DNA of 43,348 nt, taken from assembly GCA_027067055.1 (NCBI GenBank), contig JAMOMK010000053.1, forward strand, positions 1 through 43,348. Reading direction: 5' to 3'. The position numbers and the translations under genes were made by a program. This document shows, piece by piece, positions 895-26,815 of this stretch. The DNA comes from Lysobacterales bacterium (GTDB taxonomy: Bacteria > Pseudomonadota > Gammaproteobacteria > Xanthomonadales > Marinicellaceae). Numbering within the stretch: position 1 is the stretch's first letter; every line of letters begins with the position of its first letter. Below the pieces are notes generated by a model. That model saw only the letters and a program-made list of their open reading frames with translations. It did no database searches and had not been told where the DNA came from.

Positions 895-1834
895 TACACC
901 CAACTTCCCAAATTATGATACTAACCCTGTTTTGGTTATTGCTGTTTCCTCGCGCACGTTATTTGACCTTAGCCAAGAACATGACATATTTTTACAAGAT
1001 GGGGTTGATAAATATCGTGCTTACCAACTCGCACATGAAAATGAAATACTCAAGCCTGGTATCGCTTTTGACTTGGTACAAAAACTTCTTAATATTAAAC
1101 ACCCGAAAACACAACAACCCTTAGTTGAGGTGGTGCTGGTTTCACGCAATAACGGCGATACGGGCTTACGAATTTTTAATTCTATCGCACATTATGACCT
1201 AGCTATCGAACGTGCGGCTTTTTCTAATGGAAAATCACCTTTTGCTTACCTCAAAGCTTTTGGTGCCCATTTATTTTTATCCGCTCACAATAAAGATGTT
1301 GAATTAGCTTTACAAGCAGGATTTGCATCTGCCCATTTACTCACTCCAAAACATGAAAGAGATAAACCAAAAAACAACCAGTCGCAGGTACGTATTGCCT
1401 TTGATGGAGATGCGGTTTTATTTTCAGATGATTCAGAAAAAATTTACAAACAAGAAGGTTTAGAAGCCTTCCGAGAAAACGAGCGCAACAAGGCTCAAGA
1501 ACCACTCTCAGATGGTCCATTTAAACCCTTTTTAACCGCTTTGCACCAATTGCAAAGTTTATTTAGCGTTGATGAAACGCCTATCCGCACTGCATTAGTG
1601 ACCGCAAGAAGTGCTCCATCACATAAACGTGTGATATTAACTTTACGCAAATGGGGCATCCGTATTGATGAGGCCTTATTCTTGGGAGGGTTAGATAAGT
1701 CCGAATTCCTCAAAGCCTTTAAAGCCGACATCTTTTTCGATGACCAATTAATCCACATAAAATCTGCCAGCAACAGCCACCTAACATCAGGTCACGTGCC
1801 GCATGGGATTGCTAATATTAACCCTACGGTGTGA
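875..1834 (+). CDS. Cytosolic 5'-nucleotidase (NT5C1-like family)
   Basis: The 319-residue protein matches the bacterial family related to cytosolic 5'-nucleotidase 1, which dephosphorylates nucleoside monophosphates. Visible family signatures are [19 protein letters not shown] around residues 87-105 and the haloacid-dehalogenase-like block [15 protein letters not shown] around 174-188. A late FFDDQ block near residue 287 gives the last acidic residues. There is no signal peptide, which agrees with a cytosolic enzyme. The ATG lies inside the end of nadK, 20 bases before its stop. Substrate preference cannot be read from the sequence. The gene ends 26 bases before the first copy of the candidate RNA element. 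Confidence 0.85.
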
Positions 1835-1860
1835 TTATATATGCATTAAATTTTGCTCAA

Positions 1861-1903
1861 GTACAAACTTGTACAGTAAATCAAGGTTTCACACTTCTAT
1901 AAT
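1861..1903 (+). promoter_or_regulatory. Promoter of ncRNA copy 1 with palindromic operator
   Basis: A perfect palindrome GTACAA-N2-TTGTAC occupies 1861-1874 and a consensus TATAAT lies at 1898-1903. The 23-base gap is too long for TTGTAC to act as a normal -35 box, and the hexamer 17 bases upstream (AGTAAA) is poor. With a start near 1910 the palindrome is centred close to -42, the usual place for a class II activator. Copy 2 keeps the same palindrome and the same spacing, while most bases between the two boxes differ. Transcription-factor identity is unknown. Confidence 0.6.
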
Positions 1904-1909
1904 GGCGAC

Positions 1910-2033
1910 TCGTGGGTAAATGCTACGATGCGAGATTTTGTCAAATCTCCGACTGTAGCAATTTTAGTGGGATTGCGTAGCTCCACGGCTACGCTTGAAT
2001 CAGCAGCGAGAACAAGCGCTGCTGATTCTTTAT
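1910..2033 (+). ncRNA. Candidate structured small RNA, copy 1
   Basis: This is about 124 bases starting just after TATAAT and ending at a terminator-like hairpin. Stem 1 (1922-1959) pairs GCTAC with GTAGC and GAGATTT with AAATCTC around a 5x5 internal loop and a TGTC loop. Stem 2 (1975-1994) pairs GCGTAGC with GCTACGC around loop TCCACG. Stem 3 (1997-2028) is a perfect 12-bp pairing of GAATCAGCAGCG followed by a short T run. The CGTGG near the 5' end (1911-1915) could pair with the stem 2 loop as a pseudoknot. A 51-codon reading frame from 1928 crosses the element, but the differences from copy 2 in that frame change amino acids and preserve base pairs, so I favour RNA. I do not recognise a named family. 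Confidence 0.55.
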
Positions 2034-2186
2034 TAACTCACTTAATCCAGTCAACAAATCATCCATTTCTTATACACCCCTAGTCATCCAATAAATTAAG
2101 TCTCTTATCTAGCAACAAAATCCATTGATTTACAATTACTTCTGTAATTCAAATTAAAAGCAACTCATTCAAAAGAAAGCATATTA

Positions 2187-2349
2187 CCCAAATCCCGATA
2201 TAGAAAGTACGATGATAGCACAAGTCCTTGATGCACCTAGAAAACCCAGAAAAAGCTTCATCACCAATGAGGTGACTTTAGTTTTTCTTGATTTCCTATG
2301 CACATCAGTTACTTGCACTATCAAGCGCATTTCTATATCGGGATTTGGG
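2187..2349. mobile_element. 163-bp MITE-like hairpin element, copy 1
   Basis: The element begins CCCAAATCCCGATATAGAAA and ends with the exact reverse complement of those 20 bases. The interior is also an imperfect inverted repeat centred on TCACC-AATGA-GGTGA, so the whole element can fold as one long hairpin. It is flanked by a 5-bp target duplication TATTA (2182-2186 and 2350-2354). A second copy at 26649-26811 has the same length and differs at about four positions. It encodes no transposase, so it would have to be mobilised in trans. Confidence 0.85.
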
Positions 2350-2367
2350 TATTAAATACCTACAGAT

Positions 2368-2440
2368 AAAAAACAACTACCCATTCTTATTTAAAAGATG
2401 AGCAGCCATTCTCTCGGGGCGGGATATTTAGTTGTTTTTT
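2368..2440 (-). terminator. Possible terminator of the repeat-protein operon
   Basis: A perfect 12-bp inverted repeat, AAAAAACAACTA at 2368-2379 and TAGTTGTTTTTT at 2429-2440, overlaps the stop codon of the minus-strand repeat protein. Read on the minus strand, the second arm ends in a run of Ts. The roughly 49-base loop is long for an intrinsic terminator, so the call is tentative. Confidence 0.4.
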
Positions 2441-2718
2441 GTTGTGTAACAATAATGGCTAATGTTTGAGCCATCACCTACTACATTTACGTTTGATGAG
2501 CCGTCACCTACTACATTTACGTTTGATGAGCCGTCACCTACTACATTTACGTTTGATGAGCCGTCACCTACTACATTTACGTTTGATGAGCCGTCACCCA
2601 CTACATTTACGTTTGATGAGCCGTCACCCACTACATTTATACAAATCTGCGTAAAACTTTCTGCATTAACATTTAGGGTTAAAAATATTGTGACTACTAA
2701 TATTGTTTTCTTACTCAT
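2428..2718 (-). CDS. Small secreted protein of tandem 10-residue repeats
   Basis: The 96-residue product starts with a typical signal peptide (MSKK followed by a hydrophobic stretch, probable cleavage after NVNA, residue 19). The mature part is six runs of a decapeptide with core NVVGDGSSNV (residues 28-84), flanked by Cys26 and Cys90, which could form a disulfide closing the repeat. The regular V/G/D/S/N pattern suggests a stacked beta structure, but no family is recognised. The gene follows the DUF6502-like gene after 4 bases, so the two form an operon. Repeat differences at DNA level are almost all synonymous, which suggests recent expansion under protein-level constraint. The opposite strand also has long open frames, but these are a by-product of the 30-base periodicity. 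Confidence 0.65.
   Translation of the reverse strand: MSKKTILVVTIFLTLNVNAESFTQICINVVGDGSSNVNVVGDGSSNVNVVGDGSSNVNVVGDGSSNVNVVGDGSSNVNVVGDGSNISHYCYTTKNN
2468..2640. repeat. 30-bp tandem repeat (about 5.8 copies)
   Basis: The unit GAGCCGTCACCTACTACATT plus ten further bases repeats at 2468, 2498, 2528, 2558, 2588 and 2618, the last one incomplete. Copies differ by one or two transitions only, for example CCTACT versus CCCACT. Being a multiple of three, copy-number change would keep the secreted protein in frame. Confidence 0.95.
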
Positions 2719-2722
2719 GAGA

Positions 2723-3505
2723 TTACTCCTTTGTTTTATATTCTAAAAATGATATACCGTATTGTGGGTATGTATCTGCTTCAACATCATCTTCATATTC
2801 TATTAACTTTTGAGTCACCTCTTTATAATAACCATTAATTAAATTTTGAAAATCCAAATGCAATTGAGGAAAGTTTTTTGGATGAATCTGTGTTGAATAT
2901 ATTGTTTTCTGAATATACCTATCTTTTATGTTTTTTTCAGAAAAGTTATAAGTTAATGTTCCAACTGTTCTATCTATCTGTTTAGCAGTTAAATTCGAAA
3001 AGGCTACTTCTGTTTCATCCACTATTTGATTTAGATTAACAATCTCCACTTTTACCCCTAAATCTTTTAACGAACCATTTGTAATTAACTCCTCAAGTAT
3101 CGCTTGATATGTCAACGACCCAGGAGCTCTTTGTTCGCAGATGCTTTGAAAGGTTTTAAAAGGACCTAGTTTGGGTATCTTTGTTGACTGGTAATATTTA
3201 TGAGCGGTCCATCTAATATCTTCTAGGATAACTGATAGTTTATCTGGTTTAGCTCGTGGCATTTCTCCTTTTAAATGCTTGCTGATATACCTTCTATCAA
3301 TACCTGTACGAATGGCTAAGGCTACATGGGTTGCATCAGGATCAAGTCTTTGTGCTTCTAGGACAAGTTTTTCATCAAATAAGGCAAGAAATTCATTGCG
3401 TGGCAATCTAAATTTAATCACAATTTTAGCAATTGCTTTAGATAATAAGGACAAGGCTTTCTTCTTTAATTGTAAGTTTTGTTTGATTTTGGGATTAATA
3501 TTCAT
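2723..3505 (-). CDS. DUF6502-like putative DNA-binding protein
   Basis: The 260-residue protein resembles the DUF6502 family, whose function is not established to my knowledge. A basic N-terminal helical region is followed by a helix-turn-helix-like stretch (residues about 58-80, ATHVALAIRTGIDRRYISKHL), which points to nucleic-acid binding. The C-terminal half is hydrophilic with no clear motif and no membrane segment. It is first in a two-gene operon with the secreted repeat protein. Its start codon lies 14 bases from the GTACAA-N2-TTGTAC palindrome that belongs to ncRNA copy 2 on the other strand, so it could regulate, or be regulated through, that site. That link is inference only. Confidence 0.6.
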   Translation of the reverse strand: MNINPKIKQNLQLKKKALSLLSKAIAKIVIKFRLPRNEFLALFDEKLVLEAQRLDPDATHVALAIRTGIDRRYISKHLKGEMPRAKPDKLSVILEDIRWTAHKYYQSTKIPKLGPFKTFQSICEQRAPGSLTYQAILEELITNGSLKDLGVKVEIVNLNQIVDETEVAFSNLTAKQIDRTVGTLTYNFSEKNIKDRYIQKTIYSTQIHPKNFPQLHLDFQNLINGYYKEVTQKLIEYEDDVEADTYPQYGISFLEYKTKE

Positions 3506-3519
3506 TAATTTTCTCTGAA

Positions 3520-3562
3520 GTACAAACTTGTACAGTAGTTTTATAATCTAAACTCTTATAAT
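3520..3562 (+). promoter_or_regulatory. Promoter of ncRNA copy 2 with palindromic operator
   Basis: The same GTACAA-N2-TTGTAC palindrome as in copy 1 occupies 3520-3533 and TATAAT lies at 3557-3562, again exactly 23 bases apart. The sequence between the boxes is mostly different from copy 1 apart from AGTA after the palindrome. Conservation of both boxes and their spacing argues for a real activator-type promoter. It also lies just upstream of the divergent DUF6502-like gene. Confidence 0.6.
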
Positions 3563-3568
3563 GGCGAC

Positions 3569-3693
3569 TCGTGGGTAAATGCTACGATGCGAGATTTGGT
3601 CAAATCTCCGACTGTAGCAATTTTAGTGGGATTGCGTAGCTCCACGGCTACGCTTGAATCAGCAACGAGAACAGGCGTTGCTGATTCTTTTTT
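3569..3693 (+). ncRNA. Candidate structured small RNA, copy 2
   Basis: This copy is nearly identical to copy 1 over the transcribed part. Stem 1 spans 3581-3618 with loop GGTC instead of TGTC, and stem 2 is unchanged. Stem 3 (3656-3687) reads GAATCAGCAACG paired with CGTTGCTGATTC, so one G-C pair of copy 1 is an A-T pair here: both arms changed together. A stronger run of six Ts follows, giving a good intrinsic terminator. Transcription would run away from the divergent DUF6502-like gene. The rest of the gap, 3694-3841, shows no gene. Confidence 0.55.
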
Positions 3694-3841
3694 ACCACTA
3701 CTTCTCTACCACGAGTTCTTATACAAGATACACGCATTCATCAAATCTACCACAAAACAATTCTTTTTACAATTTAAAAGCATGTTATTGCAATAATGTA
3801 ATGTTGCATAGGTCTCTTTTTATGGGTCACATATTGCCAAT

Positions 3842-26590: not shown

Positions 26591-26648
26591 CAAAGCAAAA
26601 CACAAAATAGACTAAAACTTGACTTCATTAATAATTAATCTTATAAGA

Positions 26649-26811
26649 CCCAAATCCCGATATAGAAAGTACGATGATAGCACAAGTCCTTAATGCACCT
26701 AGAAAACCCAGAAAAAGCTTCATCACCAATGAGGTGACTTTAGTTTTTCTTGATTTCCTATGCACATCCGTTACTTGCACTCTCAAACGCATTTCTATAT
26801 CGGGATTTGGG
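26649..26811. mobile_element. 163-bp MITE-like hairpin element, copy 2
   Basis: This copy has the same 20-bp perfect terminal inverted repeats and the same length as the element at 2187-2349, with about four substitutions. The target duplication here is TAAGA (26644-26648 and 26812-26816), different in sequence from copy 1, which shows independent insertion with 5-bp duplication. The right-hand duplication ends on the first base of the ATG of the next small gene. Confidence 0.87.
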
Positions 26812-26815
26812 TAAG

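Follow-up and report, generated by a model that had tools for sequence, protein, structure and literature searches.

HetR, which acts with PatS/PatX and NsiR1 in the control of heterocysts in filamentous cyanobacteria, is a dimeric, three-domain helix-turn-helix (HTH) activator that has a partial-palindrome target and is inhibited by a small peptide; its HTH occupies residues 1-98, besides which it has a flap and a PatS-binding hood of alpha-beta-alpha-beta form (PMC4649674). NsiR1 is a HetR-dependent multicopy small RNA (sRNA) of about 60 nt, present in 12 tandem copies with DIF1-motif promoters (PMC9045159). In the arbitrium system, the peptide AimP inhibits the DNA-binding AimR and hence the expression of aimX (PMC9232636, PMC8464984). 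The locus analyzed here lies on contig JAMOMK010000053.1 (G000:C53) of a Lysobacterales bacterium (GCA_027067055.1, an assembly of 3.42 Mb), whose 43,348 nt are referred to as the window. As an earlier, sequence-only reading had noticed, two near-identical units stand there in direct orientation around a two-gene minus-strand operon, which encodes an HTH regulator and a small repeat protein with an intergenic gap of 4 nt; both genes are present, and the units form a direct repeat (1839-2035 against 3498-3694) of 89% identity over 197 nt, or 90% over 176 nt by Blast. We propose that each unit encodes a free-standing, trans-acting RNA of about 125 nt and that the neighboring HTH regulator has, in this genus, gained this RNA as a member of its regulon, an explanation that is held, as a whole, with moderate confidence.

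The units are genes of a real structured sRNA family without an Rfam entry. Nineteen aligned copies share three stem-loops, of which the first contains an inner helix and the third is the terminator; 97.1% of the cells are paired, and two-sided changes occur in 20 of the 29 pairs. None of 500 shuffles scored as high on pairing and on two-sided changes, and sliding the partners abolished the signal; the number of further pair types was matched by 49 of the 500. These copies represent 19 of 23 rows, the near duplicates G009a and G001a and the contig-end-cut G007b and G010b having been omitted. RNAalifold also proposed a long-range helix (columns 5-12 with 66-74); it lacks two-sided changes and did not enter the covariation test, though it is contained in the covariance model R1. 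Three unpaired stretches are nearly invariant, namely CUCGUGGGUAAA, UUUUAGUGGGAUU and the loop CUCCACGG. Rfam covariance models gave no match at gathering over the window and, at E up to 10, six matches in 1800-3800, none overlapping either unit; no tRNA or tmRNA was found. A protein-coding unit was rejected, as the short open reading frame (ORF) is, by eye, out of frame between copies and its ATG is missing in G008a. Matches to microRNA models at about 2182-2354 were likewise rejected, as they fall on an inverted repeat resembling a miniature inverted-repeat transposable element (MITE).

The promoter, three stems and terminator that had been read into each unit fared unequally. The covarying stems stand, as do the terminators, whose 12-bp stems are followed by T (1997-2028 and 3656-3687); terminator-like sites in 1800-3760 number five, both units included, against 1.2 in shuffles. 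An exact TATAAT, starting 11-12 nt before a CTCGTGG-like motif, is present in 23/23 rows (22 distinct copies, the three divergent RNA copies described below being excluded). However, a -35 box is absent at both window copies, and a consensus scan gave no sigma-70 promoter there.

Blast located a third copy (copy c) in the window's own genome and matches in all 11 genomes of the genus, with none in 30 others. The covariance model R1 found 26 places in the genus, again in 11/11 genomes, corresponding to 25 distinct copies once two overlapping contig-end matches in G010 are counted as one; the window copies score 144.1 bits (1905-2034) and 146.6 bits (3564-3693), both belonging to the model's own alignment. 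Three of the 25 copies are divergent. Among these, the copies at L107 and L106 keep the first hairpin and not the conserved linker, possibly as a second RNA subtype. Across the order, R1 matched 12 of 200 genomes, comprising the 11 of the genus and one weak match in a sister genus; because the latter lay upstream of a glycine-zipper gene (PF05433), an older form of the RNA was sought by collecting this gene across the family. A divergent homologue precedes it in 17 of 18 sister-genus genomes, with two-sided changes in 23 of 35 pairs, and most copies in both genera have GUGGGUAA close to the 5' end and, within the first loop, GGUCAAA. A model built from the sister-genus copies only (R2) detects a single copy in each of those 17 of 18 genomes, and it matches 3/11 genomes of the window's genus (E 8e-5 to 7e-4), the window's own not among them; it gave no match in one g2 and three g4 genomes. 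A joint alignment of both genera yielded no useful consensus fold, and Rfam gave five matches in five sister-genus loci, none at the RNA. In the favored explanation, the RNA forms a new family that, as far as sampled, is confined to two genera of one Lysobacterales family.

The placement of the older form suggests a different function, by which the unit would be a cis-acting leader or attenuator of the downstream glycine-zipper gene, the window copies being relics. The gene does follow the unit on the same strand in 17 sister-genus genomes and at seven loci of the genus. However, a strong terminator ends the unit, the gene starts some 100-400 nt later, behind what we read as a conserved promoter-like stretch of its own, and the genes faced by the window copies and by some further ones are unrelated or lie on the opposite strand; this explanation is considered very unlikely. 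A mobile or repeated cassette without regulatory meaning, which appears slightly less probable again, would agree with the one to six R1 matches per genus genome in differing locations, with local duplication, and with the MITE-like element at 2182-2354, but is opposed by the compensatory stem changes, by the conserved -10 box and operator spacing, by the single fixed-place copy in the sister genus, and by the lack of any regulator match in 50,697 phage records.

The RNA recurs beside a regulator gene. Relatives of the regulator occur in 11/11 genomes of the genus, and 12 of the 25 RNA copies, at ten loci, have a close relative as neighbor (the G007 locus being cut by a contig end). At nine of these loci the RNA is divergent from the regulator and within 100 nt of its start, the distance in G006 being about 420 nt; the remaining two of the 12 are the left window copy (copy a) and the second of a G006 tandem. 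Linked copies rise to 14 of 25 if one decayed regulator, recognizable beside copy c, and one more distant family member, which follows a divergent RNA copy in G006, are counted. At 8/10 RNA-linked loci the gene after the regulator encodes a small protein with a signal-like N-terminus; a contig end cuts the remaining two loci. Comparable cassettes carry one RNA in G004, G009, G008, G010 and G002, and G006 has two in tandem on the same side; therefore, by comparison of these loci, the left window copy is a local, lineage-specific duplication, and the earlier notion that twin RNAs bracket the cassette as a functional unit is not borne out. The suggestion of a regulated RNA-protein module is supported by the 12 linked copies and an operator-like palindrome shared by RNA and regulator genes.

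This palindrome spans 16 bp, with the consensus TGTryAAnnTTryACA. Among the 22 copies with enough upstream sequence, 13 have at least 7/8 pairs with the center 40-42 nt upstream, against a mean of 0.064 and a maximum of 2 in 1000 shuffles; at least 6/8 pairs are present in 19/22, a count made without shuffle comparison. The half-sites vary among copies (TGTAC, TGTGC, TGTGT) with the symmetry preserved. Within 150 nt of the start and at up to two mismatches, the consensus precedes 17 of 27 regulator-family genes as compared with 2 of 169 other ORFs; the bearers include 9 of the 10 RNA-linked regulator genes and 8 of the 17 others, two of the eight sharing one site. Many regulator start codons have the palindrome 18-87 nt upstream, the distance being 18-27 nt in 7/9 of the RNA-linked cassettes that carry the consensus. 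In the sister genus, an inverted repeat of related sequence lies some 17 nt ahead of the ATG in 11/12 regulators examined (read by eye), and 3/12 match the consensus at up to two mismatches. The strict pattern occurs at three places in the window's own genome (control 1): one at RNA copy c, one at a pair of divergent regulator genes and one inside a coding sequence; both window palindromes are one base off it. Divergent pairs of unequal regulator-family genes that share an intergenic palindrome, without an RNA, were seen at L123 (5274-6771; palindrome TGTACAAGTTTGTACA) and L122.

It is conceivable, if unlikely, that a global activator of the CRP/FNR type binds these sites, the linkage to the regulator reflecting shared history. 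TGTGC-N6-GCACA near -41.5 resembles a CRP-like site, and the form and position of the palindrome fit a class II CRP-type promoter; the regulator's own predicted winged helix, being similar to the CRP domain, could also read such a site. However, by the strict pattern, three places in 3.42 Mb, two of them at an RNA or regulator pair, are too few for a global regulator. Further, regulator-family genes without an RNA are also preceded by the palindrome, and in the sister genus the related inverted repeat accompanies the regulators but not the RNA.

The proposed recruitment of the RNA by the adjacent regulator can be put as a more specific model. A dimer of the regulator would bind the palindrome. 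Class II activators typically have their site near -42 at promoters that lack a -35 box, and since the window copies combine the two, it is proposed that the regulator acts at the RNA gene as a class II activator; since the palindrome is also a short distance upstream of the start codon of the regulator gene, the protein would probably repress its own operon through that site. RNA copies elsewhere that carry the same kind of site would answer in trans, the RNA could act post-transcriptionally through its nearly invariant unpaired stretches, and, more speculatively, feedback on the regulator may come from the small repeat protein.

Several observations weigh against this model. Three of the 22 copies have fewer than 6/8 pairs at the fixed place, and 10 of the 27 regulator genes lack the consensus; several of the latter show other inverted repeats, which we read as possible other operators. 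The consensus was written after the sites had been seen, the shuffles ignore kinship, and linked cassettes share one site, so that the counts overstate the strength of the association. At sister-genus RNA promoters the consensus was found in 0/17 (within 60 nt, at up to three mismatches). Linkage of the units to DUF6502-like genes, proposed earlier as a check, holds for the 12 copies given above but not for 11 of the 25, which have no regulator-family gene within 2 kb or before the contig end, and unlinked units are part of what that reading had said would refute it; several of the 11 are close to contig ends, and 6 of the 9 tested carry the palindrome at at least 6/8 pairs. A search for targets by duplex energy, pairing four RNA segments and the whole RNA with 200 gene starts, gave no class of neighbors that was consistently among the best. 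Its strongest hits to regulator genes were dismissed as trivial, as over-extended ORF starts appear to overlap the RNA antisense. Finally, a class-wide search with R2 gave 0/369, a weak negative, since the filters were strict, the window's own genome gave no match either, and no sister-genus genome was among the rows listed.

With regard to the regulator itself, neither Pfam nor NCBIfam offered a fitting family for the window protein (0 family matches at E up to 10). In 21 relatives the HTH matches were all weak (the best at 0.0067; HTH_24 in five) and the others scattered, DUF6502 not being among the families listed for them (25 of 42). Pfam thus does not support the DUF6502 label initially given to this gene, its model (PF20112) finding C10, C71 and C114 in the same genome but not the window gene; what remains of the label is a remote profile relation. 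By hhalign against three true DUF6502 members the regulator reaches a probability of 98.7 (E 3e-16, 244 columns), and the profile A3 recovers one true member at 2e-11; the score of the wider alignment A5 against DUF6502 is not independent, as A5 already contains true members. On these profile comparisons the regulator is a remote relative of DUF6502 over most of its chain, and not a DUF6502 protein by Pfam. The regulator profile matches 47 of 121 genomes of the order, true DUF6502 members included; with a limit of E 0.1, searches of PHROGs and PADLOC gave no family. Longer members of the regulator family, of about 334-345 aa, were seen at L037 (176-1177) and L074; the query matches a part of their chain two times.

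The predicted fold of the regulator brings HetR into view. AlphaFold models reached a predicted local distance difference test score of 83.3 and, with 38 sequences, 88.4 (predicted template-modeling score 0.71). Compared with 1000 chains, the second model placed HetR (4j00_A) first (Z 8.9, root-mean-square deviation 6.2, 228 of 260 residues); HetR entries were four of the top five, MCM8 being the other, and the only whole-chain matches among the best 50 listed, and the first model matched HetR at Z 8.4-8.5. The model's winged helix resembles the CRP domain, and its C-terminal part would read alpha-beta-alpha-beta, as the HetR hood does, only on condition that two stretches without an assignment form strands. 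TPR (tetratricopeptide repeat) or RRNPP folds were not noticed among the fold matches listed, which excludes nothing.

Going beyond the model above, and without excluding it, DUF6502-like regulators and HetR may form one superfamily, with the cassette as a proteobacterial counterpart of HetR-PatS in which a HetR-fold activator is inhibited by a peptide processed from the co-transcribed, secreted repeat protein and the multicopy RNA is the output. This bolder reading is considered unlikely. In its favor are the whole-chain fold match, the small protein that follows the regulator at 8/10 RNA-linked and several other family loci, the DG[ST]-core repeats in many of these proteins, and the multicopy sRNA NsiR1, which HetR also governs (PMC9045159). 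However, a Z near 9 may arise by chance in helical proteins, and Foldseek ranked HetR only 17th with the second model (E 0.27, template-modeling score 0.40) and not among the best 50 matches listed with the first. Support from sequence is marginal: hhalign to HetR gave E 0.013 and a probability of 3.3% with the wider A5, E 0.073 with the narrower A3 and E 0.09 when true DUF6502 members were used, no alignment being obtained in global mode; a single HetR sequence scored 20.7, as compared with 22.7 for the best of 59 unrelated proteins and 18.4 for the best of 60 shuffles; and the profile, searched against PDB sequences, had no HetR chain among five matches at E up to 10. In addition, no RG(S/T)GR peptide was seen in the small proteins inspected, and the two cysteines flanking the repeats suggest a folded structure. 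HetR was not found in plasmids and viral contigs.

The features of the RNA, the regulator and the small protein in the window are collected in Table 1. The 96-aa protein carries decapeptide repeats (VGDGSSNVNV) between its two flanking cysteines. The repeat peptide of the sequence-only reading is confirmed as an ORF, and the protein is apparently secreted, the signal-like N-terminus being judged by eye and not flagged by a crude signal-peptide filter; for the small proteins generally, 'secreted' is a reading of the printed sequences, the filter having missed obvious cases. At L117 and L118 a repeat protein stands upstream of the regulator, with repeats IDSDGSGVTK or LESDGSGID, and an inverted repeat AGTAAAAAG...CTTTTTACT precedes the regulator at L116, L117 and L118, marking a third cassette type; at L118, the ORF beside the G000:C140 regulator is one that we take to resemble a transposase associated with repetitive extragenic palindromes (REP). 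The MITE-like inverted repeat at 2182-2354, inside the RNA-bracketed stretch, has a counterpart at 26648-26812, the two having 27 nt between the arms and a common end, TTTCTATATCGGGATTTGGGT; a related end was found near another regulator gene (L110). Genes for NAD kinase and 5'-nucleotidase are among the neighbors flanking the locus, and others are taken, by resemblance, to be pnt transhydrogenase genes.

Table 1. Features of the RNA-regulator locus in the window.
Feature	Position	Strand	Basis or remark
Operator-like palindrome AGTACAAACTTGTACA, RNA copy a	1860..1875	.	6/8 pairs; center 41 nt upstream of CTCGTGG
-10 box TATAAT, RNA copy a	1898..1903	+	Exact match
Small RNA copy a, lineage-specific duplicate	1909..2034	+	Start inferred from -10 box; fold z -4.62
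Small repeat protein gene, 96 aa	2428..2718	-	ORF; 30-nt DNA repeat
Regulator gene, 260 aa; remote DUF6502 relative, HetR-like predicted fold	2723..3505	-	
Operator-like palindrome between regulator and RNA copy b	3519..3534	.	Center 21 nt before regulator ATG and 41 nt upstream of CTCGTGG of copy b
-10 box TATAAT, RNA copy b	3557..3562	+	Exact match
Small RNA copy b, copy conserved beside regulator	3568..3693	+	Start inferred; fold z -4.88

The present data add a covariation-supported sRNA family without an Rfam entry, and illustrate how a neighboring regulator may capture an sRNA, the operator being found at 0/17 sister-genus copies as compared with 19/22 copies of the genus (at least 6/8 pairs). 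To our knowledge HetR is described only from cyanobacteria; should the HetR relation be true, a large family from proteobacteria would join this cyanobacterial master regulator, and it could be tested whether peptides control such regulators in Gram-negative bacteria. Paralogous regulator/repeat-protein pairs with different repeats could then represent parallel, private signaling channels in one genome. In the literature searched, no paper found names DUF6502, and searches for HetR outside cyanobacteria and for Marinicella with small RNA gave nothing relevant among the papers listed; going by these searches, the RNA family and the HetR-DUF6502 relation appear to be unpublished.

In comparison with the described systems, the locus shares with HetR, PatS/PatX and NsiR1 the combination of an HTH regulator, a small protein and a multicopy sRNA, and the regulator model aligns to HetR over 228/260 residues, but the locus belongs to another phylum and has no significant sequence match; the RNA, at about 125 nt and with a palindrome at its own promoter, also differs from NsiR1. 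To DUF6502 the likeness is remote homology over most of the chain, whereas the Pfam model misses the regulator. The order of the genes resembles that of AimR, AimP and AimX; however, arbitrium is a Bacillus phage system with a TPR regulator, and the present regulator has no phage match, no TPR match having been noticed among the fold matches listed. A further comparison is with sRNAs driven by a divergently encoded activator, where the sRNA and regulator genes share an intergenic operator; here, by contrast, the RNA is of a new family, and several of its copies would answer to one type of operator.

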